Part shown: positions 1,724-10,586 of the stretch, in pieces | Layout of the letters: the number at the start of each line of letters is the position of its first letter | Position numbering within the stretch: the first letter of the stretch is position 1 | NCBI GenBank assembly: GCA_029261615.1 | Contig: JAJDAX010000252.1 | Coordinates: 1 to 10,586, forward strand | Direction: 5' to 3' | Length of the DNA stretch: 10,586 nt | DNA from: Nitrospinaceae bacterium | GTDB taxonomy: Bacteria > Nitrospinota > Nitrospinia > Nitrospinales > Nitrospinaceae | Translations under genes and position numbers: made by a program | Notes under the pieces: generated by a model | The model's input: the letters and a program-made list of their open reading frames with translations, nothing else | Databases searched by the model: none | What the model was told of the DNA's origin: nothing

Positions 1724-2776
1724 ATGACCAAACCAACGATTTATTTTTCATTGCTTGTAGTGCTTCCACTGTCGCTACTCCCTTTGGCTTGGGCTGACCT
1801 GCAAACGGCGGCAGAAACCATGATAGGTCTGGAAGGGAAAGAGACAATGAATATATTGCAGTTGAAAGGAAAGGAGGTAGTAATCCAATCAGATTCAGAT
1901 AAAATTCCTAAGCCCTCTGAAGTCCCAAATAGTCCTTACGGTGAGATAATTACCCTATGCACGGACGGTGCATGTGGCTGTAATGACGACATATGCAAAC
2001 CGGAGGAAATCGCCAAAAACCTGGTGTATCACATATTAGGCATCAAAGGACCGGTCAAGAAAGTCATTGATGACTTCATGGCCGAAGAGGGCTGCATTCT
2101 TACGAAAACTGGATATAGATATGGTAATGACCCAGACAGTTTCTCTTGCCCCAGGATCGATTTATCTGATTTGCTCAAGCTTCGTTCCGGTCGCGCTGGG
2201 TGGATGTACCAATCCATCAGTCGTCTTGTTATCGTAAGGCTAGTTGAGCTTGGTTCGGCCAGTAATACCTTTCCCATCATGGCCTTGACCATTTGCCAAG
2301 AGATGAAAAGTCAAAAGGGTTCTGACGACAACTACCAAACAACCCTGGCTACTCGTGTCTGTGGCTTTGACCCTAGCCGATTCTCGCTCCCACGTCCTAC
2401 ATGGTCAGAGGCGGAAAAATCTATGGTCGAGAAGGCCTTAAAACATCGTCTTGATGCAATGGAGGCACTTAAACCACGTCTCGATCAAAAGGACCTAGGG
2501 GAAATACCACCGGCCCAGGAGGGTCCCACACCACCGGTCTATCCTCGAATTGCTAGGGAGTCAGGATGGGAAGGGACTGTGCTCATCCGCGTAGTTGTCC
2601 TAGCTGATGGAAATCCAGGCTCCATTTCCGTTCATAAAAGCAGTGGACACGCCGTGTTGGATGAAGCGGCAATTGAAGCCGTCAAAAAATGGAAATTTAC
2701 TCCTGCAAAAGATGGGAATATCCCAGTCCGTAGCGTCGTGGAAATCCCCATCAATTTCGATCTAAGTAAGCAGTAG
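1724..2776 (+). CDS. Exported Cys-rich protein with C-terminal TonB domain
   Basis: The product is 350 residues. The ATG at 1724 has GGAGG at 1713-1717, six bases away. Residues 6-23 are a hydrophobic segment ending AWA-D, a standard signal-peptidase-I site, so it is probably a cleaved signal rather than the uncleaved TonB membrane anchor. Residues about 70-220 form an unrecognised domain with eight cysteines (79, 84, 86, 91, 124, 142, 191, 213), including CTDGACGCNDDIC; their even number suggests disulphides or metal binding. A charged helical linker spans 225-260. Residues about 264-348 are a TonB C-terminal domain: YPRIARESGWEGTVLIRVVV, then GSGHAVLDEAAIEAVKKWKF-like core and the closing beta strand. 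Known TonB proteins couple proton-motive force through ExbB/D to outer-membrane transporters. Without an anchor, this one more likely binds envelope partners in the periplasm. A sigma-54-type promoter lies just upstream. Confidence 0.88.
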   Translation: MTKPTIYFSLLVVLPLSLLPLAWADLQTAAETMIGLEGKETMNILQLKGKEVVIQSDSDKIPKPSEVPNSPYGEIITLCTDGACGCNDDICKPEEIAKNLVYHILGIKGPVKKVIDDFMAEEGCILTKTGYRYGNDPDSFSCPRIDLSDLLKLRSGRAGWMYQSISRLVIVRLVELGSASNTFPIMALTICQEMKSQKGSDDNYQTTLATRVCGFDPSRFSLPRPTWSEAEKSMVEKALKHRLDAMEALKPRLDQKDLGEIPPAQEGPTPPVYPRIARESGWEGTVLIRVVVLADGNPGSISVHKSSGHAVLDEAAIEAVKKWKFTPAKDGNIPVRSVVEIPINFDLSKQ

Positions 2777-2910
2777 AGAATAGGTGATGGAAATGGCACT
2801 AGTATGGGACCGTTACCCTTTCCAACCCGTCAGGCTCAACCTATGCCCCAGGAAGGCAATACCGTTTGGAGACGTGTTGTGGGATAAACGAGTATTTGGT
2901 TTTTATATCA

Positions 2911-2947
2911 GGGGCTCCACCCGGAGTTATACCCCTCAAAAGAGGGG
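2911..2947 (+). other. Two adjacent, mutually exclusive hairpins in leader RNA
   Basis: CTCC (2915-2918) can pair with GGAG (2923-2926), and the flanking GGGG (2911-2914) with CCCC (2932-2935). Alternatively, CCCCTC (2932-2937) pairs perfectly with GAGGGG (2942-2947) over an AAAA loop. The shared CCCC means the two folds compete, as in switching leader RNAs. A further CTCC...GGAG pair lies downstream, where the GGAG is the ribosome site of the 16-codon frame. The function is inferred only. Confidence 0.35.
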
Positions 2948-3003
2948 GTTGTTATCTGTATCTATTGAAGTTCACAATTGGCTCCAATCCATCAGGAGAG
3001 GGA

Positions 3004-3054
3004 ATGGTGAGACAGATAAACGATTTAAGAGAAGCCTTTCACAAGGAATTGTGA
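3004..3054 (+). CDS. Possible 16-residue leader peptide
   Basis: An ATG at 3004 follows AGGAG (2994-2998) at a spacing of 5 and is read MVRQINDLREAFHKEL before TGA. Its last seven sense codons and stop lie inside the terminator-like stem beginning at 3033. A ribosome on this frame would therefore melt or block that stem, which is the geometry of translation-coupled attenuation. There is no run of one amino acid that would name a signal. It could equally be a chance frame. Confidence 0.3.
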   Translation: MVRQINDLREAFHKEL

Positions 3055-3069
3055 GGGGCTTTTGTGTTT
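3032..3069 (+). terminator. Strong intrinsic-terminator-like hairpin, possible attenuator
   Basis: AGCCTTTCACAA (3033-3044) pairs with TTGTGAGGGGCT (3049-3060) over a GGAA tetraloop of GNRA type. The 12 pairs include two G-U wobbles, and A3032-T3061 extends the stem. TTTGTGTTT follows, an imperfect U tract. The stem is too close to the ATG at 3090 to leave room for a promoter after it. It therefore either ends the TonB-gene transcript with some read-through, or acts as a conditional terminator for the DUF1566 gene. Confidence 0.6.
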
Positions 3070-3089
3070 CATGGTACGGGGGGGTTGAG

Positions 3090-3743
3090 ATGAGAACATT
3101 TACGCGTGGACTTATTGGGCTGTTCAGTATCGTATTCTTACTTGGTGTCCTACCACTTGAGAGTGAGGCGGGAAAATGGAAGAAGTACTTTGATAACCAT
3201 GTCAGCCATAAGGATCTTCGGGCGGATCATGAGGACCTGGAATATGACAATCGGAAGACGCACGAGTGGCTGGAGAAGATCGAAGGGATGTTAGCGCCAG
3301 TGAAGCCGGTATGTCCGGTAGCGGGGGGCACGCCGGATGCGAGTGGGCAGTATGTGACCTATGAAGCCGATGCTCTGGACCCAAAGAAAGTGTGTGATAT
3401 ACGGACGGGGTTGTTCTATGAGCACTCGCCGAGTACATCCACGTTTCAGTGGTCCTCCGATGGGACCGCGACGGAAGCCCAAGACCATTGTACGAACGAC
3501 TTGGGCGCGGGGTGGCGGTTGCCGACGAGCTATGAATTGTATGCTGTAGTGGACGTGACGACCTTCCAGCCCGCCGTGAATACGAGCGTGTTCAGCAACG
3601 TCCAGTCGGCCTTTTATTGGTCGGCGTTGACGCATGCCGCTCCTGTCACGCAAGCGTGGGGCGTGCACTTCACCTTTGGCAATGTAAACTCCAACCCTAA
3701 GTCGAACCACGTCTTTGTCTGGTGTGTACGCAATGGCAGTTAG
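3090..3743 (+). CDS. Secreted DUF1566 (Lcl C-terminal, lectin-like) domain protein
   Basis: The product is 217 residues. I chose the ATG at 3090 because it opens a good signal peptide (MRTFTRG, hydrophobic core, ESEA-G cleavage near residue 27). The frame itself extends further upstream, and the ribosome site is only a G-rich stretch. Residues about 31-70 are charged and helical, probably a stalk. Residues about 75-214 are the DUF1566 domain: TGLFYEHSPSTSTFQW, AQDHCTNDLGAGWRLPTSYEL, the YWSA turn, and the closing VWCVRNGS. Cys75, 102, 134 and 212 are available for disulphides. Known members with this fold are secreted or surface ligand-binding proteins, including the Legionella collagen-like adhesin and variable targets of diversity-generating retroelements. 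The domain-coding part is clearly richer in GC (39 of 60 bases at 3301-3360) than neighbouring genes (23 of 60 at 3841-3900), hinting at separate ancestry. The ligand is unknown. Confidence 0.85.
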   Translation: MRTFTRGLIGLFSIVFLLGVLPLESEAGKWKKYFDNHVSHKDLRADHEDLEYDNRKTHEWLEKIEGMLAPVKPVCPVAGGTPDASGQYVTYEADALDPKKVCDIRTGLFYEHSPSTSTFQWSSDGTATEAQDHCTNDLGAGWRLPTSYELYAVVDVTTFQPAVNTSVFSNVQSAFYWSALTHAAPVTQAWGVHFTFGNVNSNPKSNHVFVWCVRNGS

Positions 3744-3764
3744 AATGAATTTCGGGAAAGGAAT

Positions 3765-3793
3765 ATGACGGTTATTCTCGAAGGATTTATAGG
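3765..3793 (+). promoter_or_regulatory. Possible sigma-70 promoter for the gene at 3851
   Basis: ATGACG (3765-3770) and TATAGG (3788-3793) each match four of six consensus bases, with the ideal 17-base spacing. A start near 3800 would give a leader of about 50 bases. The alternative is read-through from the DUF1566 gene ending at 3743, as no terminator is evident between them. Confidence 0.3.
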
Positions 3794-3850
3794 ATAAGAA
3801 GTTAGAGAAGCACCAAGCAAAGTGCACAATTTGAAATGTGAGGTGGAATC

Positions 3851-4546
3851 ATGATGACCAAACGATGTGTTTTCTTATTGGCTTTATTATCCGTTCTCTG
3901 TTTGCCATCTCTGGCTATGGCAGAAATAAGTGGGTTAGCGGTTTTTGATGATAATGGGAAACGGGTTGGACCAGTGATTGGGACAAAGGACAGTGGTTCT
4001 ACCGCGCCCAACGTTTGGTTCTCCTTCGAAACCAATGAGGAGTTGGTCACCTTACTTGTTGATTTGAGTGGAGATGGCTTAACTGGGATGGGTCCAAAAC
4101 ACTTCTTCTTTGAATCAACCGACTGCTCAGGACCTCCTTTAATACACCCCAACGGTCCTGGTTTGTGGCCAGATTTTTTAATAGTAGGAGGGCCGAATCC
4201 AGGACAACTGGGTGGTGGTGGTGACAATATAATCTACGGCCAAGATCCCAATGATATAGCACGACCAAATATAACTCCAAGGTCCCAGACTTTAACTACT
4301 GCTGAAGATTGCGACCCACCTCCATCAGGGACTTCCGATGCCATCAAGGTTAAAGCAATACTAGACATAGACACCGTATTTACTCGTCCCTTTCATATCG
4401 AAAGCGATGATGTACCAGATATGTCGTCAGTCCAAGCCCAACTCGATACTCTCCAAGAACAACTGAATAACCACTACCACAAGCTCAAACTGGGTAGACG
4501 ATTTAGACTCCCCACTGGACCACCCATATTCCCTGATACCCCATGA
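3851..4546 (+). CDS. Secreted hypothetical protein with C-terminal coiled coil
   Basis: The product is 231 residues. GAGGTG at 3840-3845 precedes two in-frame ATGs (3851 and 3854), so either could start. A clear Sec signal peptide ends AMA-E at residue 24. Residues about 25-90 read as a small beta domain (GLAVFDDNGKRVGPVIG, VWFSFETNEELVTLLVDL). A Gly/Pro/Asn-rich middle (95-160) with Cys92 and Cys154 follows, then a short beta segment. Residues about 191-212 form a heptad-like stretch (MSSVQAQLDTLQEQLNNHYH) likely to oligomerise, and the tail is basic and proline-rich. I recognise no family. Lying 107 bases after the DUF1566 gene on the same strand, it may be co-expressed and serve the same extracellular role; that is inference. 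Confidence 0.75.
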   Translation: MMTKRCVFLLALLSVLCLPSLAMAEISGLAVFDDNGKRVGPVIGTKDSGSTAPNVWFSFETNEELVTLLVDLSGDGLTGMGPKHFFFESTDCSGPPLIHPNGPGLWPDFLIVGGPNPGQLGGGGDNIIYGQDPNDIARPNITPRSQTLTTAEDCDPPPSGTSDAIKVKAILDIDTVFTRPFHIESDDVPDMSSVQAQLDTLQEQLNNHYHKLKLGRRFRLPTGPPIFPDTP

Positions 4547-4593
4547 TCAAAGCACCAAGTTTTGCGGATGGACAATTGGCAACGCTACTGTAA

Positions 4594-4631
4594 GCCGAGG
4601 GAGTGAGCGACGTAGGAGCGAACGACCGAGG
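4594..4631 (+). repeat. Degenerate GAGYGA-type purine-rich repeat
   Basis: Within 38 bases the unit recurs as GAGGGA, GAGTGAGCGA, GGAGCGAACGA and CCGAGG, almost free of pyrimidine partners, so the transcript cannot fold on itself. TCTTCTTTTAATATT follows. It lies between the stop of the secreted protein gene and the stop of the facing lipoprotein gene. Similar GAGCGA-rich strings occur between genes in unrelated bacteria, but I cannot name a family for this one. Confidence 0.4.
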
Positions 4632-4674
4632 TCTTCTTTTAATATTGCTGGAGGTATCCCCTATGAGGGAACCA

Positions 4675-4693
4675 CCCCGCCATTTGGGCGGGG
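4675..4693. terminator. GC-rich hairpin between convergent genes
   Basis: CCCCGCC (4675-4681) pairs perfectly with GGCGGGG (4687-4693) over ATTTG. It lies five bases past the stop codon of the leftward lipoprotein gene and on the exit side of the rightward secreted-protein gene. Neither strand has a strong U tract, so it is at best a weak intrinsic terminator or an RNA 3'-end stabiliser. Confidence 0.45.
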
Positions 4694-4697
4694 AACT

Positions 4698-4964
4698 TTA
4701 CTGTTGAACTTGTTTTTCTTTATCAGCTTGCTTCGGGGATCTTTTATTAAGATAACCCAGTTCCACCTTCTCTTCTACGGTGAGGGGCACACCAGATTCA
4801 AGTTCTTCAGGGTAGCAAAGTCCCCACATATACCCACGTTGGTGTACGGTCGCACAACCTGTGACATCCCAGACTTCGCCATCTCTTGCCAATGGGTTGA
4901 TACCAGTACTTGAGCAGCCAGAAAGGATAAGTAAACTTGCAAGTGCGATAACATTCTTTTTCAT
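4698..4964 (-). CDS. Small lipoprotein of unknown function
   Basis: The product is 88 residues starting MKKNVIALASLL, with an LSGC lipobox at Cys17, so it is lipidated in the envelope. I prefer this ATG over the in-frame one at 4970. The GGGGG ribosome site (4973-4977) is 8 bases from the former but only 2 from the latter. The mature part has two more cysteines about 14 residues apart (GCATVHQRGYMWGLCYPEEL), which may form a loop. The tail is charged and rich in Lys and Gln. No family is recognised. It is on its own transcription unit and converges on the secreted-protein gene. Confidence 0.72.
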   Translation of the reverse strand: MKKNVIALASLLILSGCSSTGINPLARDGEVWDVTGCATVHQRGYMWGLCYPEELESGVPLTVEEKVELGYLNKRSPKQADKEKQVQQ

Positions 4965-5069
4965 TTCCATATCCCCCGTTAAGCCAAAGGTATAGTTGAA
5001 TCATACCGCTTGGGCGGGGTGCACACAATTAGTTGTCACTTCACCTAACAACATACTACCCAGGAAAAC

Positions 5070-5093
5070 TGACAAGCACCGCCCAACTTGTCA
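5070..5093. repeat. Dyad TGACAAG-N10-CTTGTCA
   Basis: Two perfect 7-base half-sites are separated by 10 bases, about 105 bp upstream of the small lipoprotein gene. The size suits a dimeric repressor or activator operator. On the leftward strand it is also a hairpin followed by GTTTTCC. The spacer contains CCGCCCAA, the complement of the TTGGGCGG motif found at 4684 and 5010. Confidence 0.4.
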
Positions 5094-5302
5094 AAATCTA
5101 GAGGGTGTTTGGCAGTGCCTGACTGTAGCAATCGTTCCATATCGCCCTAAACCAATAAAAAATATGTGCAGTTTTTAAATAGGTCCTAACGTGCTATCCA
5201 CTAAACCCATTTTTTCCCCCACCCCCCTGTCTTTTTCTGTAGGAAAAAAAAGGTTTCCCTCCCCTGTTCCTCTCAAAGGAAATAGGTCTTTCTATTTGAG
5301 GT

Positions 5303-5325
5303 GTAACCTTTTTTGTAACCTTTTT
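5303..5325 (+). repeat. Tandem repeat GTAACCTTTTT x2
   Basis: GTAACCTTTTT begins at 5303 and again at 5315, with a period of 12 bases. It lies about 150 bp left of the tRNA fragment. Tandem short repeats in such a place can be arm-type binding sites of tyrosine recombinases, though no integrase is present here to support this. Confidence 0.5.
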
Positions 5326-5345
5326 CCCTCAGACCCGTCACATCC

Positions 5346-5363
5346 TACGCAACCATACGCAAC
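5346..5363 (+). repeat. Tandem repeat TACGCAAC x2
   Basis: TACGCAAC occurs at 5346-5353 and 5356-5363, with a period of 10 bases, one helical turn, so both copies face the same side of the DNA. It is a second tandem pair within 60 bp of the GTAACC pair. Confidence 0.5.
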
Positions 5364-5383
5364 ATTCATGAAGGACCTAACTC

Positions 5384-5409
5384 ATTGATCAATCAAGCGG
5401 TTTCCGCTT
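5384..5409. repeat. Two adjacent palindromes
   Basis: ATTGATCAAT (5384-5393) is a perfect 10-base palindrome. One base later, AAGCGG-TTT-CCGCTT (5395-5409) is a perfect 6-bp hairpin with a 3-base loop. No U tract follows, so it is not a terminator. They lie 42 bp left of the tRNA fragment and may be protein-binding sites. Confidence 0.45.
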
Positions 5410-5450
5410 CTATGGTGGGGTTTCGTCGAAGGGAAGGGTGAGCTGGTTAG

Positions 5451-5498
5451 GGTTTTGTAAACCACCGGTCGGAGGTTCAATCCCTCTCGCCAGCTCCA
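5451..5498 (+). tRNA. 3' fragment of tRNA-Thr(UGU), probable attachment-site scar
   Basis: The sequence fits tRNA positions about 29-76: anticodon loop TTTGTAA (5454-5460, anticodon TGT), 3' anticodon strand ACCAC, variable loop CGGTC, T stem GGAGG/CCTCT around TTCAATC, acceptor 3' strand CGCCAGC, then T73 and CCA (5496-5498). TTTTTCC follows, a usual tRNA terminator. The 5' half is missing. The expected acceptor strand GCTGGCG and a D arm are absent, and positions 27-28 no longer pair with 42-43. GCTGGTTAG just upstream (5442-5450) resembles a D loop but is too close. It cannot be a working tRNA. A remnant running from the anticodon stem to the 3' end is what integrases crossing over in the anticodon loop leave at the far end of an inserted element. 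The threonine identity is inferred from the anticodon. Confidence 0.75.
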
Positions 5499-5659
5499 TT
5501 TTTCCTCTCATGGCAACCTCATACTCCCTGCCATTACTCCGGATTCGAAATAACTGTCATTACATCATCCTTCATCTCGCAGAGATGTCAGGAATTGACA
5601 GCGCAAGGTTGAACAGAATCATTCCCTGCATGCGGCAATTGCGAAACTAAGGTATTCGT

Positions 5660-5689
5660 ATGACAATTTTGAATCCGGCTCCCTATAAT
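5660..5689 (+). promoter_or_regulatory. Sigma-70 promoter with perfect -10 box
   Basis: ATGACA (5660-5665, five of six) and TATAAT (5684-5689, six of six) are separated by 18 bases. Transcription would begin near 5696. No credible protein start follows, so an RNA product is likely. Confidence 0.5.
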
Positions 5690-5695
5690 CGCAAA

Positions 5696-5804
5696 CTCTT
5701 GGAGCTGTTTTGGATTTTCTTCCTCACTTCCCATTCCGAAGAAGAGGCTTTGCCCCCCCACCTCCTTACGTGAGGGTTTGAGGCATTTCCAGCTCCCATT
5801 TTTT
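5696..5804 (+). ncRNA. Candidate small RNA of about 110 nt
   Basis: From the predicted start, GGAGCTG (5701-5707) pairs with CAGCTCC (5790-5796), closing the whole molecule, and CATTTTTT ends it. Inside, TTCTTC can pair with GAAGAA, and CCTCC with GTGAGG-type partners around 5761-5783. The end stem with a U run, plus a good promoter at the right distance, is the usual look of an independent sRNA. The closing stem spans a large internal region, and no known family is recognised, so termination is less certain than for a simple hairpin. Confidence 0.4.
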
Positions 5805-5821
5805 CCAGGCAGCAAAAGATG

Positions 5822-5862
5822 GAAAAAAATTACCCCGAGCAGAGTCACTGACCTTGCTGGGG
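5822..5862 (-). terminator. Intrinsic terminator of the leftward small-gene unit
   Basis: Read leftwards, CCCC-AGCA (5862-5855) pairs with TGCT-C-GGGG (5841-5833), with GTCA-G-TGAC stacking in the loop, and TAATTTTTTT follows (seven U from 5829-5823). This is the best terminator in the window. It closes the unit that includes the genes from 7360 down to 6127. Confidence 0.7.
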
Positions 5863-6126
5863 AAAACTAATATCCCCATCACCCCCTTTTCCTAAGGGAA
5901 AACTTCGATAGTCACGCCGCATAGCACTCCACGGGAATAGCTCGTTTAACGCTTGGGGATTGAGAGTGCTCAAAAGAGCCGTCTCTGGGTAGAGGTATTC
6001 TATAATCTTGAAGTATCTGAAAAACTCATCTGTATCGCGAAGGATTGTTTTAAGAAGGGAGAGAACAAAAGTCTAGATTTGCAAAAGAAGGCAAATTTCT
6101 GAACAGAAAAACGAGGCGATTCTTGG

Positions 6127-6255
6127 TTATGATCTTCCGTAACGTTCTTTGCGATGCCACCATGCATGTCCATGCATCCACCCGAAACATGCCAGCGTAC
6201 CAACAACGAAAGCCATGAAAAAAATTGTGAGAACAAATGCGAGTTTACTTACCAT
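6127..6255 (-). CDS. 42-residue single-pass membrane protein, His-rich tail
   Basis: The ATG at 6255 follows an excellent ribosome site (GGAGGA, 6261-6266, spacing 5), the same GGAGGAGAAA context as the gene at 7360. The product starts MVSKLAFVLTIFFMAFVVG. Residues 5-25 are one transmembrane helix ending in a Cys, followed by GWMHGHAWWHRKERYGRS. That tail is positively charged and holds three His and two Trp within 8 residues, which could bind a metal or haem or sit at the membrane face. By the positive-inside rule the C terminus would be cytoplasmic. The gene is short enough to be missed by automatic calling. It is the last gene before the terminator at 5822-5862. The role is unknown. Confidence 0.68.
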   Translation of the reverse strand: MVSKLAFVLTIFFMAFVVGTLACFGWMHGHAWWHRKERYGRS

Positions 6256-6276
6256 CTTTCTCCTCCCCCTCTAGGC

Positions 6277-6339
6277 TCAAAAAAGGGTCGCGAGTCTCTC
6301 TAAATTGTATCGGCCTTCTTTGGTAATTCCTTTATACAT
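6277..6339 (-). CDS. Possible 20-residue peptide
   Basis: The ATG at 6339 follows AGGAGGAGT (GGAGG at 6343-6347, spacing 3) and reads MYKGITKEGRYN... to a TGA at 6277. Its stop is 21 bases before the start of the 42-residue membrane protein and in the same frame. It is amphipathic and basic. It may be a leader peptide coupling translation to that gene, or a chance frame after a purine-rich stretch. Confidence 0.33.
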   Translation of the reverse strand: MYKGITKEGRYNLERLATLF

Positions 6340-6407
6340 ACTCCTCCTGCGGCCCTATCACAACCACCAGAACATGGCCCTTGGCCCCTACGTGGCTACC
6401 TTATGAC

Positions 6408-6623
6408 TCAAGGATTGGTTTTTGTTGAACTTTTTACTGGCTCCTCACGCGTTAATGGCTGATTCGTTAAAGGACGAGGCTCCTTTTCTAATCGGGTCCG
6501 CCGGCCACAATTAATGCACCGATACACGACTAAAGACATGCCTGTCAGTAGGTCAACTTCCTGGTCAAGAACAAGGGTCCCTTCACATCTTTCACAATTT
6601 GGTTTTTGAGTGCCATTTACCAT
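6408..6623 (-). CDS. Small zinc-ribbon protein
   Basis: The product is 71 residues with two CxxC knuckles: C10-E-R-C13 and C36-I-N-C39, 22 residues apart. This is a typical rubredoxin-like zinc ribbon that would bind one Zn(II). The segment between them is beta-like (TLVLDQEVDL, SLVVYRC). After GRR the tail is Pro/Thr/Lys-rich and probably disordered. There is no signal peptide, so it is cytoplasmic. The start ATG has a poor ribosome site (AAAGGG lies about 14 bases upstream), so expression may be low or coupled to the upstream gene 73 bases away. A DNA- or RNA-binding role is possible, but nothing in the sequence decides it. Confidence 0.72.
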   Translation of the reverse strand: MVNGTQKPNCERCEGTLVLDQEVDLLTGMSLVVYRCINCGRRTRLEKEPRPLTNQPLTREEPVKSSTKTNP

Positions 6624-6696
6624 GTTAATACATCTTACCCTTTAATAAATTACAAAAGTACCTTGCCGTGTGATCAGACTCTGGGTTTCCCCCGTT

Positions 6697-6951
6697 TCAA
6701 CATGCCCCGTCCAAATCTGCGAGGTTGTGAGCACAGCTCGCAATGTGTTCGACTTCGGGATGCCGTGTGGCCTGCTGCATGAGGGACCGCCACACAGCAT
6801 TGGTATCCCATTGCAACAGCGGGGTATCCCACGTCAGATTCTCGCCGTCCCACTCCATCCACACGTTCCCCACATGCACGAACCCCGATTGGTCATTGAG
6901 AATGGCTTTGACCATTTCTTCGATCATGAGTTGGGCCCGTAGATGATTCAT
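6697..6951 (-). CDS. Hypothetical 84-residue cytoplasmic protein
   Basis: I chose the ATG at 6951 because GGAGGG (6959-6964) precedes it by 7 bases. The frame is open 40 codons further, but that part overlaps the next gene's end and lacks a ribosome site. The product starts MNHLRAQLMIEEMVKAILND, a likely amphipathic helix. A short beta-like motif VHVGNVWMEWDGENLTWDT follows, then a second helical part with Trp, His and two Cys near the C terminus (ASCAHNLADLDGAC). There is no signal peptide or membrane segment. No family is recognised. It lies 64 bases after the exported-protein gene on the same strand and probably shares its transcript. Confidence 0.6.
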   Translation of the reverse strand: MNHLRAQLMIEEMVKAILNDQSGFVHVGNVWMEWDGENLTWDTPLLQWDTNAVWRSLMQQATRHPEVEHIASCAHNLADLDGAC

Positions 6952-7015
6952 TTCAGAACCCTCCAGTCTAAGCCCAATATGCCAAGGTTTTTGATGAGAG
7001 CATTGCCGAAGTGCG

Positions 7016-7360
7016 TCATTCGGACACCCGATTACTCTTGAGACATGAAGTTGAGAATTTAGAGACCGCAAATTCCATATTTTGAAAAAGAGCCTTTAGC
7101 TCCGTCACCGACTTCGCCCGGTCGCTGGATCTGATGGAATCATGTAGTTCATCGGACACAAAATTCAGAGGGATAGCTGCCACCACACTTGCTGTATCCA
7201 CTTCTTGTTTTTTGACGGCAATTTCCTTCTGTAACTGTTGAACCTCTTCAATAGCCACTTGGCACTGCATCTCCCACAATGCCGCAAACACTGAACTGGT
7301 TCCGGCAAAAAGGATAAACCCGCCCAAGAGACTGATCCAAACTGGTTTTTGCCTCATCAT
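7016..7360 (-). CDS. Small exported protein with helical core
   Basis: The product is 114 residues starting MMRQKPVW. This start is chosen because GGAGG (7367-7371) lies 6 bases upstream; a start nine codons earlier would put the ribosome site inside the coding region. The signal peptide has a core of LLGGFILFAG and cleaves at SVFA-A (residue 26). Mature residues about 29-55 are a strong heptad-like helix (IEEVQQLQKEIAVKKQEVD), and about 82-104 a second helix. Cys33 and Cys106 near the two ends may form a disulphide clamping a helical hairpin. A periplasmic location is likely. No family is recognised. It is the first gene of the leftward unit ending at 5822. Confidence 0.7.
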   Translation of the reverse strand: MMRQKPVWISLLGGFILFAGTSSVFAALWEMQCQVAIEEVQQLQKEIAVKKQEVDTASVVAAIPLNFVSDELHDSIRSSDRAKSVTELKALFQNMEFAVSKFSTSCLKSNRVSE

Positions 7361-7580
7361 GTTTCTCCTCCTTCCCTTTATGATCATAACCCACTTGAAT
7401 GAACGATTCCGTTACCTGTGTTTGAAGGATACCGTCCCCACCCCTTAGGGTAAATTCGCCATGCTGCGTACATTTTTCATATCACCCTGTAACGTTTTGT
7501 CGGTTTTTTTCAATTTACTGACATTTACTCGCTACAGACCAAAACCAGCGGTTGCTAGAAAAATCGAGGATCGATTACTA

Positions 7581-7609
7581 GAAAAAAATAATGGTGGAAT
7601 GGAACCATT
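7581..7609 (-). terminator. Weak intrinsic terminator, probably for the tat unit
   Basis: Read leftwards, AATGGT (7609-7604) pairs with ACCATT (7595-7590) over eight bases and is followed by ATTTTTTT (7589-7582). The stem is AT-rich and short, but the U run is strong. It is about 215 bases after the cyclophilin stop codon. Confidence 0.4.
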
Positions 7610-7717
7610 CAATGGCCCCGTTGACATGTAAATAAACCTAAGGAAAAGAGAGGGAAGAAAAAGATAAATCGAAGGAGGGACTACAATTTCAATAAAAACC
7701 ACCCAGGAAAAGGGACG

Positions 7718-7800
7718 AAGACTGTTCTGGGATATTTCAAGTTTGTGTTGCTGGAGTCATTTCCGAAACACCAATATTTTTCACAGCCCTGAACAGTCTT
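7718..7800. repeat. 83-bp long imperfect inverted repeat
   Basis: AAGACTGTTCTGGG (7718-7731) and CCCTGAACAGTCTT (7787-7800) are reverse complements over 14 bases with one mismatch. The inner sequence pairs further: ATATT (7732-7736) with AATAT (7773-7777), and GTGTT (7745-7749) with AACAC (7767-7771). The whole element can fold into one long stem. No target duplication or coding region is seen. It lies just after the end of the cyclophilin gene and could be a 3'-end RNA structure, an sRNA or a small repeat element. Confidence 0.55.
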
Positions 7801-7823
7801 CAACCATTTCAAACAATTGACAG

Positions 7824-8327
7824 CTAGCTGATTGTGACAGTCATCTCGATGCGTTCCAATGGGTTATCGTTTCCATCTCGCTTGACGGCCACCACACGAT
7901 CGACTACCTCCATGCCGCTTTCGACTTCACCAAATGCAGTGTATTGCCCATTTAAGAATGCGGCATCGGCCACACAAATAAAAAATTGTGATCCTGCGCT
8001 ATTCGGATCTTGAGCACGTGCCATCGACACCACCCCGCGATTATGCGGTTTCGCATTAAACTCAGCATTCACATGATGCCCAGGCCCCCCTGTTCCATGG
8101 GTTGATCGATCTGGGTTTTTGCTATTCGGATCGCCGCCCTGAACCATAAATCCAGGGATCACTCGATGAAACGTGCATCCATCATAAAATTTATCCTGCG
8201 CCAATTTGCAAAAATTATTCACATGATTAGGAGCCACGTCTGGATAAAAATTCAAAGTAATCGTCCCCCAGGCTTCCCCTTGGGAAGAAACCGTAATCGT
8301 GGCTGTTTGCTGACTCTCATCGCTCAT
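7824..8327 (-). CDS. ppiB: Cyclophilin-type peptidyl-prolyl cis-trans isomerase
   Basis: The product is 167 residues, the usual length of a single-domain bacterial cyclophilin, with no signal peptide, so it is cytoplasmic. It catalyses cis-trans isomerisation of X-Pro bonds during protein folding. Core motifs are present in order: FHRVIPGFMVQGGDP (53-67) with the catalytic Arg55, the GTGGPG loop (78-83), GSQFFI (112-117), and FLNGQYTAFGEV (124-135). Phe124 takes the place of the Trp that gives cyclosporin sensitivity in human cyclophilin A, as in many bacterial forms. The start ATG has AAGGAG six bases upstream. It follows the beta-propeller gene by 27 bases and is the last gene of the tat unit. 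The symbol is by resemblance to the cytoplasmic class. Confidence 0.95.
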   Translation of the reverse strand: MSDESQQTATITVSSQGEAWGTITLNFYPDVAPNHVNNFCKLAQDKFYDGCTFHRVIPGFMVQGGDPNSKNPDRSTHGTGGPGHHVNAEFNAKPHNRGVVSMARAQDPNSAGSQFFICVADAAFLNGQYTAFGEVESGMEVVDRVVAVKRDGNDNPLERIEMTVTIS

Positions 8328-8354
8328 AAGAACTCCTTCTGCCTCTATAATAAA

Positions 8355-9431
8355 TTAGAAATATGGACGCGGCACCGTAAACTGCGTCCCTAGACCTTCG
8401 CTCATATTTTCCCAATGTTCGCCATGGTCTTGACTACGAAAGGCCCCTGCACTTGTCCCAACAAATAAGTCTCCGTTCGAAGTCATCACCATGGCCTGAA
8501 TGGCACGTTCGGTAAGCCCTGTGTTCACTGAAGTCCATTTGGAATTTGGCTGGGATGCTGTATAAATACCCCATCCAGTGGCGACAAACACCCCGGCATT
8601 GATGGACACGATTCCTCGGATAGAATCATTCGCCAACGATCGCCCAAACCTATGCCAAGATTTTCCATGATCGGTGCTGTGAAAAATACCGCCATTCTGC
8701 GTCCCGACGAACAGTGCCTCATCTGAGTTTTTCGCAAGCACGCGAATATGATTATGTCGCAACCGTTCTTTCTCATCCACAAACTGCGTCTTCACGGGCT
8801 GCCATGTGGCCGTCCCAGGCTTCGTGGTATCAAGCCACTGGACGCCCTTTCCCGCAGTCGCGGCGAACAAACGTCGATTACCCAACATCACTAAACTTGA
8901 AACCAACGTTTGATCTAACCCCTTCGCCACGACAGTCCAAGATTGATCGATTTCATGCCATTGATAGACGCCTCGTCCTGTCCCAGCATAGACGCCCTCT
9001 TGATCGGCTAAGAGGGATTTGACTTCGACTCGTTTCAGGCCCTGGTTAATCAATTCCCACGTACGTCCATCTTCCTTGGTTCGGAAAATCCCCCCACGAA
9101 CCGTACCAGCATACACGCGTCCCTTCTGATCAACGGCCAAACTTAAGACAAACTGGTCACTCAATCCCTCATTGATTGGCTTCCAATGTTCCCCCTGATC
9201 ATGACTCAGAAACACACCGAGTCCAAACGATCCGGCATAGAGAGAACCATCAGCAGCAGCGGCAAAGGTTTGGATACTCGGGGCAACGGCACCTCTATTC
9301 TCAAACGGGTTGACATGATTTTGAGGCGCAGCCAACACACTTCCACCCCCTACCGATGTTACCAGCCATATGGCGAATAGCATCATGAGTCTCGAAGCCA
9401 GGCTAACACGGGCGTGTTGGGGGAAGGACAT
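8355..9431 (-). CDS. Exported seven-repeat beta-propeller (BNR/YCF48-like)
   Basis: The product is 358 residues. The signal peptide has a long n-region (MSFPQHARVSLASR), a hydrophobic core and a VLA-A site. Seven repeats of the pattern (Y/F)(A/V)GT...G(I/V)(F/Y)...D.G..W......L follow, for example YAGTVRGGIFRTKEDGRTW and FVGTSAGAFRSQDHGEHW. Seven matches a closed seven-bladed propeller of the BNR/sortilin/YCF48 type. Such propellers bind proteins or glycans; YCF48 assists photosystem II assembly, but no enzyme residues are seen here. The ATG at 9431 is 15 bases after the tatC stop. A TTG at 9446, directly abutting that stop, is an alternative; neither has a clear ribosome site, so translation is probably coupled to tatC. 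Being between tatC and a cyclophilin suggests an envelope assembly role (inference). Confidence 0.85.
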   Translation of the reverse strand: MSFPQHARVSLASRLMMLFAIWLVTSVGGGSVLAAPQNHVNPFENRGAVAPSIQTFAAAADGSLYAGSFGLGVFLSHDQGEHWKPINEGLSDQFVLSLAVDQKGRVYAGTVRGGIFRTKEDGRTWELINQGLKRVEVKSLLADQEGVYAGTGRGVYQWHEIDQSWTVVAKGLDQTLVSSLVMLGNRRLFAATAGKGVQWLDTTKPGTATWQPVKTQFVDEKERLRHNHIRVLAKNSDEALFVGTQNGGIFHSTDHGKSWHRFGRSLANDSIRGIVSINAGVFVATGWGIYTASQPNSKWTSVNTGLTERAIQAMVMTSNGDLFVGTSAGAFRSQDHGEHWENMSEGLGTQFTVPRPYF

Positions 9432-9446
9432 ATTGGGTGAGGACAA

Positions 9447-10232
9447 CTATTCTTTAGAGGGTGGAGGCGCTAAATCATCCAATGCATCTTCAATATCATC
9501 ATTATCCGATTCGTATTCAGATGGCGCTGGCCGGCGGCCAAACCACTTCGCTCCCCAGATGCCGATCTCGTACAACACGATCAGGGGTACGGCCATCAAC
9601 ATCATGGTAAAGAGCGTGGCATCTGGAGTAATGACGGCAGAAACAATTAAGGCAATCATCGCCGCATGCCGACGAAATTTGGCTAATTGCTCAGGCTGAA
9701 CAATGGCCGCACGTGATAACAGGGTCAGCGTCAAGGGCAATTCAAACGCAAAGCCAAACGCCAACAGAAATTTGACGTTAAAATCAACGTAGGTTCCCAC
9801 GGCCAATTCCGGTTTTAATTCCCGCTCCAATCCGAATGACACAAAGAAGTTAATGACAAGGGGCAGAATGATCAGATTACAAAAGGCCAAACCTAAAGCG
9901 AAGAAACCCGAAGCCAACAAAAATAAGGGAATGCCCCAGTTTTGTTCCTTAGGCAGGAGCGCTGGCTGAATAAACCGCCAACATTGATGAAGAATGACGG
10001 GCATGCTGGCAACAATCCCAGCAAGAAAGGAAATTTTGATCGAGGCAAATAGGGCTTCCGCCGGCCCATAAAATATGAGGTCATCAGCAAAGGGCCGCTT
10101 AAACCATTCGATGAGATCGGCGGACACGGAGAACATGATGACAAACGCCACCAGGATCGTGCCACCGATGATAAACAGCCGGCGTTTGAGATCGCCAATA
10201 TGACGAGCAAGAGGATGTCCAACGGATGCCAT
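9447..10232 (-). CDS. tatC: Sec-independent protein translocase subunit TatC
   Basis: TatC is the six-helix inner-membrane receptor that binds twin-arginine signal peptides and recruits TatA for export of folded proteins. The 261-residue form starting at the ATG at 10232 fits the family length. A TTG at 10289 would add 19 residues before the conserved N terminus, which is unlikely. The N-terminal HIGDLKRRL (11-19) corresponds to the family's HLxELRxRL, with Asp14 where E. coli has Glu15. PAEALFASIKISFLAG, QPALLPKEQ (Glu96, equivalent to E. coli Glu103), FELPL, and ITPDATLF (Asp204, equivalent to Asp211) are all present. Six hydrophobic segments are visible. The C-terminal tail after residue 238 is unusually acidic (ESDNDDIEDALDD). 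No tatA or tatB is in the window. It lies between the DUF465 gene and the propeller gene. Confidence 0.96.
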   Translation of the reverse strand: MASVGHPLARHIGDLKRRLFIIGGTILVAFVIMFSVSADLIEWFKRPFADDLIFYGPAEALFASIKISFLAGIVASMPVILHQCWRFIQPALLPKEQNWGIPLFLLASGFFALGLAFCNLIILPLVINFFVSFGLERELKPELAVGTYVDFNVKFLLAFGFAFELPLTLTLLSRAAIVQPEQLAKFRRHAAMIALIVSAVITPDATLFTMMLMAVPLIVLYEIGIWGAKWFGRRPAPSEYESDNDDIEDALDDLAPPPSKE

Positions 10233-10301
10233 GAGAAAATTGGCCTTATAAAAACCCGAGATGAAAATTCGTGGCGACCCCCAACGCAAGCCGTCACACA
10301 G

Positions 10302-10541
10302 TTAGGCTATGGTCTGTTCCTCACACGTTCGATAATCGCGAACCATTTCCGCCATTCGATCTTTCAACCCAAGTTTTTCCTTTTGAAGTTGTTTTTTCAG
10401 TAACTCTTCCTGAGGTGTGAGCGTGTGATTTTTTAATAACGTTTTCAATTCAGCATCAAGACGATGGTGAGATTCTTCCACCTCTCGAAAATCTGCATTG
10501 GTTGAACGGAGGTGCTCTACAATTTGATCATCTGTTTGCAT
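10302..10541 (-). CDS. DUF465 / YdcH-like small helical protein
   Basis: The product is 79 residues. It shows the DUF465 pattern: LRSTNADFREVEESHHRLD (about 11-29), ELKTLLKNHTLTPQEE (31-46), then KKQLQKEKLGLKDRMAEMV. It is predicted to be a helical hairpin or coiled coil, cytoplasmic, with no signal peptide. The start ATG has a strong AAAGGAGGA (10547-10555). Members are common in proteobacteria and relatives, but their function is not established. It lies 69 bases upstream of the chosen tatC start. It is the first gene of the unit visible in the window; 45 bases remain to the right edge, with a small CCC-ATCGAT-GGG dyad (10562-10574) and no clear promoter. Confidence 0.88.
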   Translation of the reverse strand: MQTDDQIVEHLRSTNADFREVEESHHRLDAELKTLLKNHTLTPQEELLKKQLQKEKLGLKDRMAEMVRDYRTCEEQTIA

Positions 10542-10586
10542 ACTAATCCTCCTTTCTGCGCCCTATCGATGGGCCTTAAGTTGGAT

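Follow-up and report, generated by a model that had tools for sequence, protein, structure and literature searches.

Sequence evidence for the attR end of a probable genomic island in a tRNA-Thr(UGU) gene, with cargo shared with a probable tRNA-Leu(CAG) element of a near relative

Islands in tRNA genes and the window analysed

Genomic islands that occupy tRNA genes and leave displaced 3′ fragments of their targets are well known, and the Islander database records such a 3′ fragment in 3760 of 3919 islands and an anticodon-centred site in 2083 (PMC4383910). The match of the anticodon stem-loop to integrase core sites has been reviewed (PMC8371274), and exchange of integration modules has been described for streptococcal ICEs (PMC4701971). 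A paper on Nitrospira nitrosa treats integrases and an island in general terms (PMC5596200), and, among the papers listed on Nitrospira, integrases and islands, titles and abstract openings hold no pointer to tRNA-Thr elements of the kind described here, which is no proof of their absence from that literature.

The window analysed here is a stretch of 10,586 nucleotides (contig JAJDAX010000252.1), the features of which are collected in Table 1. Positions 5237–5498 are very probably the attR of a genomic island, inserted by a tyrosine integrase into the tRNA-Thr(UGU) gene that the chromosome carries close to cyclophilin and tatC. The locus resembles the anticodon-centred islands of Islander in its displaced fragment including the tRNA 3′ end, in the breakpoint at the anticodon and, presumably, in the tyrosine integrase type, but it differs from them in that the window shows one end only, and the restored tRNA and the integrase would lie outside it.

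Table 1. Features of the window around the tRNA-Thr(UGU) fragment, with distances of arm repeats counted from the core; motif counts are descriptive
Feature	Coordinates	Strand	Basis
Predicted lipoprotein, 253 aa	549..1310	-	no Pfam or NCBIfam family
Protein with C-terminal TonB_C domain, 350 aa, probable element cargo	1724..2776	+	PF03544, E 2.8e-25
Segment common to window and G001 contig C33, most of TonB-like gene and its end, probable cargo	1932..2849	+	84% identity
Predicted secreted protein with Lcl_C domain	3090..3743	+	PF07603, E 2.5e-21
Predicted secreted protein, 231 aa	3851..4546	+	no Pfam or NCBIfam family
Small predicted lipoprotein, 90 aa	4698..4970	-	ORF list; no Pfam family
Segment common to window and G001 C33, directly after 1932..2849 there, probable cargo	5084..5236	+	74% identity
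Putative attP-arm block of element, integration cassette end (214 bp)	5237..5450	.	left limit is end of homology to G001 TonB segment
Putative arm-type repeat 1, GTGTAACC	5301..5308	+	-153; loosened motif nearby in 14/18 class fragments, window included
Putative arm-type repeat 2, GTAACC, 12 bp after repeat 1 in register	5315..5320	+	-139; loosened motif in 18/18
GCAAC repeat a	5349..5353	+	-105; loosened motif in 16/18
GCAAC repeat b, 10 bp beyond repeat a	5359..5363	+	-95; GCAA in 18/18
3′ fragment of tRNA-Thr(UGU), probable attR / displaced target fragment	5451..5498	+	tRNA positions 29-76 with CCA; 48/48 identity to intact G001 gene
Shared core TTTGTAAACC, presumed crossover region	5454..5463	+	anticodon loop and 3′ stem; present in 24 UGU fragments counted
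Native chromosome right of site	5499..10586	.	collinear with G001; small genes and the four genes below
Cyclophilin	7824-8327	-	Pfam E 4.8e-50
Beta-propeller-type protein	8355-9446	-	family search
tatC	9447-10289	-	Pfam E 1e-57
DUF465 ORF	10302-10541	-	Pfam E 1.1e-7

The tRNA-Thr(UGU) fragment and its empty site in a relative

ARAGORN called no tRNA in the window and Rfam returned no match in it at E ≤ 1, so the window holds no complete tRNA gene. The fragment at 5451–5498 encompasses the anticodon loop (anticodon at 5456–5458), part of the anticodon stem, the variable region, the T arm, the acceptor 3′ strand and CCA. The closest relative found was G001, a Nitrospirae metagenome-assembled genome (isolate casp150-mb.14) with a TatC 97% identical to that of the window, the best among 66 tatC loci gathered by a scan with the window TatC, many of them too short to reach the tRNA place. 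The fragment has one match in G001, an intact tRNA-Thr(UGU) gene identical to it at every base and, beyond its end, as far as window position 5505 (55/55; BLAST E 1.6e-22 against this one genome). Counted in that 75-nt ARAGORN gene, the fragment starts at nucleotide 28, or tRNA position 29 with the anticodon taken as 34–36, and as homology to the empty site also begins there the breakpoint falls inside the anticodon stem-loop.

Homology to G001 sets in precisely at 5451 and extends across two contigs of that genome to take in cyclophilin and tatC, with 5451–5843 collinear at 84.5% to near the end of contig C16 and 5840–10586 collinear with a second contig (L001) at 87.8%. Identity amounts to 89 of 100 bases to the right of 5451 versus 13 of 50, about chance, to the left, where G001 encodes a 318-aa protein of the alcohol dehydrogenase family (Pfam). 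Since the tRNA is whole in G001, its site is empty, and this relative therefore supplies an unoccupied site with an intact tRNA, the same right flank as the window and a different left flank. Of the 66 tatC loci, 12 likewise have an intact tRNA-Thr(UGU), as called by ARAGORN, beyond cyclophilin, in the same relative orientation and at a distance of 66 to 7921 bp; this count leaves out a thirteenth tRNA-Thr lying on the other strand in a Methylobacillus locus (L065). To judge from these sequence comparisons, the right side is the native place of tRNA-Thr(UGU), because the G001 flank is collinear with it and the intact gene recurs at those 12 loci.

An earlier sequence-only reading had described the fragment as tRNA positions of about 29–76 with CCA and no 5′ half, had placed native chromosome with tatC, cyclophilin and DUF465 to its right, and had proposed comparison with a related genome lacking the insert. 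The identity to the G001 gene, with no complete tRNA called in the window, bears out the first of these points; the collinearity with G001 from 5451, the intact tRNA found there and the Pfam matches in Table 1 bear out the second; and G001, with its intact tRNA and empty site, proved to be a genome of the kind sought.

Several further observations concern this region. The homologies of the two G001 contig ends (L121 and L001) overlap by 4 bases relative to the window, at 5840–5843, and an inverted repeat of 27 bp (81%, E 0.009) is present at these ends; the contig break may thus correspond to a small inserted repeat element with 27-bp inverted ends and a 4-bp target duplication. In another relative, G003, a weak integrase match adjoins tRNA-Thr and the gap between cyclophilin and tRNA measures 7.9 kb, but no second fragment that would mark a remnant at the same site was found in it. 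Left of the fragment, GAGCTGG (5440–5446) can pair with CCAGCTC (5490–5496) at the fragment end, perhaps as an att-site hairpin; the folding z-scores of the 61-nt strand are -4.2 for the window, -2.9 for the tRNA-Thr fragment region L117 and -0.8 for L119.

The arm block and integrase-bearing elements at tRNA-Thr(UGU)

Fragments of tRNA-Thr(UGU) were detected in at least 8 of 59 relatives in a first survey, which sorted the matches lying in fetched loci or stretches into intact genes and fragments and to which we added 20 stretches around genes for integrases like that of locus L120, an integrase with matches at E ≤ 1e-30 in 43 of 146 genomes. The L120 element itself (genome G054; L120 6471–12519) is complete, consisting of an intact tRNA-Thr, 5.9 kb of element and then the fragment, and its integrase gene is convergent with tRNA-Thr and overlaps the tRNA 3′ end. 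Its other genes include those for a rolling-circle initiator (PHROG 3419, E 6.1e-56) and a ribbon-helix-helix protein. Twelve loci combine on one contig an intact tRNA-Thr, a whole or partial integrase gene and, at distances of 4.7 to 14.4 kb, a fragment of the class to which that of the window belongs, and small tRNA-Thr(UGU) elements of that size occur in relatives of G001 (L120, L118, L239–L241, L244, L247–L250, L253 and L254). Among 30 integrase loci, 20 encode proteins at least 65% like the L120 integrase over the match, and for 18 of them the locus contains tRNA-Thr(UGU), while the remaining two (L147, L155) have a fragment in place of the tRNA, as in a tandem array. The ten less similar integrases lie at tRNA-Ser (three), tRNA-Arg (two) and tRNA-Met (three) or have no tRNA in the locus (two). 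The tRNA-Thr(UGU) gene is thus a repeated insertion point in this group of relatives.

Apparent tandem arrays at tRNA-Thr, in which the integrase end abuts a fragment and not an intact tRNA, were seen in three genomes (G086, G132 and G146; L242, L251, L252, L259), and the intact tRNA of the window's genome could therefore sit beyond more than one element. Decayed elements also exist, since an L120-like integrase is missing from the stretch between tRNA and fragment at L117 and L119. At L119, three similar predicted secreted proteins, presumably PEP-CTERM-like, are encoded between intact tRNA-Thr and fragment (7747–9778), with an integrase-like stretch beyond the tRNA; the two of these three proteins that were searched match no Pfam family.

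To the left of the window's fragment, the putative arm block shares its layout with these elements. We compared 24 UGU fragments chosen for having the core TTTGTAAACC, 18 of which form the window's class. Motifs at about -152, -140, -105 and -95 are present in 14, 18, 16 and 18 of the 18 class fragments, respectively, and in none of the other six, with repeat 1 loosened to TGT followed by AAC, GCC, ACC or CAC; because the class was set by eye before counting, the motifs were picked after looking and the sequences are related, these counts describe a common architecture and are no independent test. All four motifs are present in the window, and 0 of 20,000 shuffles of its 200 upstream bases contain all four. 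Outside the class, L186, L189, L190 and one fragment in L242 have none of the motifs, and L251 and one fragment in L252 are of a GGTGTTA kind. Direct alignment of 5301–5506 with L117, the tRNA-Thr fragment region of genome G005, gives 74.8% identity over 206 bp, tRNA part included, and the arm block also matches two other attR-type ends, L118 (79% over 63 bp) and L119 (90% over 39 bp). In two variants, L187 and L250, GTGTGCCC replaces GTGTAACC, which suggests that the arm repeats follow the integrase.

The count of 24 leaves out fragments lacking the core in L252 and L258, as well as similar fragments with the core TTCGTAAACC in L192, L245 and L246, the second of which also has an intact tRNA-Thr(CGU). 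These TTCGTAAACC fragments suggest that tRNA-Thr(CGU) is targeted as well.

The L120-like elements are like the window in tRNA, core and arm-site spacing but unlike it in cargo, since L120 carries rolling-circle initiator and ribbon-helix-helix genes. Six proteins of the L120 element gave no significant match to the window outside the tRNA, and the L120 integrase matched it significantly only where the integrase C-terminus reads through the tRNA.

Cargo shared with a probable tRNA-Leu(CAG) element and a possible cassette exchange

The genes left of the arm block (Table 1; the start of the Lcl_C protein was chosen inside a longer ORF, 2784–3743) include a TonB-like protein with an 80% identical homologue in G001 over residues 71–350. 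Matches to this protein occur in 55 of 59 genomes, and among those listed all others start at residue 216 or later and cover mainly the common C-terminal domain. The 549–1310 lipoprotein has homologues in none of 59 relatives at E ≤ 1e-4, in a search run without a positive control, and the 3851–4546 protein has weak partial matches in 3 of 97 genomes, all with stop codons. The sequence-only reading had called the left-side genes orphan secreted proteins, a description that fails for the TonB-like gene, so that not all of them are orphans. The same reading held that left-side genes in a relative without the fragment would speak against an insertion; the TonB-like gene does occur in such a relative, but its place there, beside a tRNA-Leu 3′ end, favours an element. 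No transfer genes were seen in the visible part of the cargo. Searches of nine window proteins against PHROG returned three weak matches (E 0.002–0.003), and a phage link is not proposed, the TonB protein having a single weak viral contig match (42%, residues 271–349, within the TonB_C domain) and the L120 integrase no confirmed one.

The G001 homologue begins contig C33 (L183), where the cargo shared with the window spans L183 1–1094. Two window segments, 1932–2849 and 5084–5236, follow each other directly on this contig, and window positions 2850–5083 have no counterpart between them. About 190 bases past the shared cargo, L183 1285–1301 matches the last 17 bases of tRNA-Leu(CAG) at 17 of 17 positions, a match with an E value of 3e-5 when searched against this contig, compared with only 0.04 when the block is searched against the whole G001 genome and picks out the intact tRNA-Leu. 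Beyond it lie genes for a BrxC/D-family ATPase and for two further proteins that Pfam confirms, one with a STAS domain and the other an aldehyde dehydrogenase. A second G001 contig, C70 (L215 13005–14203), carries tRNA-Leu(CAG), and only 6 bases separate the end of this tRNA from an integrase gene, 352 bases past which the contig ends. In the chromosome of genome G004, tRNA-Leu(CAG) is flanked on its left by a region collinear with C70 and on its right by one collinear with C33, and between the two lie a 2.1-kb insert and a tRNA-Leu fragment (88% identical, 59 columns), with the end of which, and its flank, L183 1282–1405 aligns at 68% (E 1.5e-7). Because of this collinearity and the integrase beside tRNA-Leu(CAG) on C70, the two contigs are most likely the two ends of one tRNA-Leu element with the TonB gene at its distal end, an element that is split over two contigs and the fragment of which rests on 17 bases. 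Of 24 loci fetched with the L215 integrase, 13 encode proteins at least 58% like it and 11 of these 13 lie beside tRNA-Leu, with no tRNA found at the other two; the 11 less similar ones lie at tRNA-Arg (seven, one also at tRNA-Lys) and tRNA-Thr (two) or have no tRNA (two).

This probable leucine element is like the window's in having TonB cargo just inside the distal end and in a pair of repeats that precede the fragment by about 150 and 139 bases, but it differs in tRNA, in arm motif (GGTGTTA at -151 and -140, 11 bp apart) and in its integrase, which is 27% identical to that of L120. At the same place in G001, similarity to the window's arm block was not above that of shuffles, and homology between the two blocks was rejected, the score being reached by 194 of 500 local and 174 of 500 global shuffles. 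A 45-base portion of the leucine block is 87% identical to the block of a tRNA-Thr fragment in G146. The target cannot be read from the arm type alone, because the GGTGTTA type occurs both at tRNA-Leu and at the tRNA-Thr fragments of G132 and G146.

One unlikely account of these data is that an element did integrate but was mostly lost later, and that a rearrangement placed the TonB gene and its neighbours beside a 214-bp remaining end, so that they would not be cargo. The similarity to C33 does stop at 5236, just before the arm block; no integrase family was found among the left-side window proteins tested, in the 5.4 kb visible; and L117 and L119 exemplify decayed elements. The TonB segment of G001, however, also lies just inside a tRNA 3′ end, and two independent rearrangements to such a place are improbable. 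Less likely still is an assembly chimera, produced by fusing an unintegrated attP circle to an empty attB through their common tRNA 3′ half, leaving arm block and chromosome not truly adjacent: the 55 bases identical between window and G001 here would be enough to mislead a short-k assembler, but the join has a genuine attR layout that recurs elsewhere, including on contigs of more than 4 Mb (L120, L249). A decayed tRNA gene that lost its 5′ half with no integration, a process that does occur and would fit a fragment lacking that half, is the least credible of all, given the identity of the fragment to the intact G001 gene, a breakpoint in the anticodon stem, and element-type arm sites at fixed spacing on the left in a block common to integrase-bearing elements.

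The attR reading is preferred because of the empty G001 site, the homology break at 5451 and the arm layout recurring at fragments that close integrase-bearing elements; the break and the arm block likewise uphold the earlier placement of the element on the left and the chromosome on the right. Under the attR reading, crossover would have taken place in the anticodon loop, within the core TTTGTAAACC; the island would have brought its own 3′ half, restoring a working tRNA at its far left end, off the window, and the original 3′ half would have stayed at 5451–5498. The repeats at 5301–5320 and 5349–5363 are, by their fixed spacing and recurrence, likely arm-type sites for the integrase and perhaps for a directionality factor, and the genes left of 5237 would be island cargo. 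In G001, a different attP-arm block stands before part of the same cargo, and the element concerned is probably one at tRNA-Leu(CAG).

Once such an element is circular, attP would lie next to the integrase gene, and therefore a swap of this one block could change the target tRNA with the cargo kept. One cargo on two integration cassettes is the simplest reading of a TonB gene near an element end in both genomes, the alternative being that the TonB segment was captured twice. Whether the integrase gene with attP, including two arm-repeat sets at fixed spacing, constitutes an exchangeable cassette in these Nitrospirae relatives is a broader proposal, which we advance tentatively and rate at somewhat less than an even chance: one species would carry its cargo on an L120-type cassette, at tRNA-Thr, and a near relative would carry the same cargo on a cassette of L215 type, at tRNA-Leu, with the two sequences parting cleanly at the cassette edge. 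Burrus, in 2002, reportedly discussed exchange of modules with a change of integration specificity. The streptococcal ICEs are alike in combining related bodies with unrelated integrases and other target sites, but their body is a conjugation module, whereas that of the window is cargo with no transfer gene in its visible part (PMC4701971).

The finding is ordinary in kind and overturns nothing known about islands in tRNA genes, the presumed module swap being mildly interesting. The comparison with G001 fixes an exact border between mobile and resident DNA in the group that contains Nitrospira. Members of that genus are known nitrifiers. The window and G001 also form a near-relative pair whose sequences may reveal how swapping a cassette alters the target site and, if the cassette proposal is true, elements in this group would re-target without a change of cargo.
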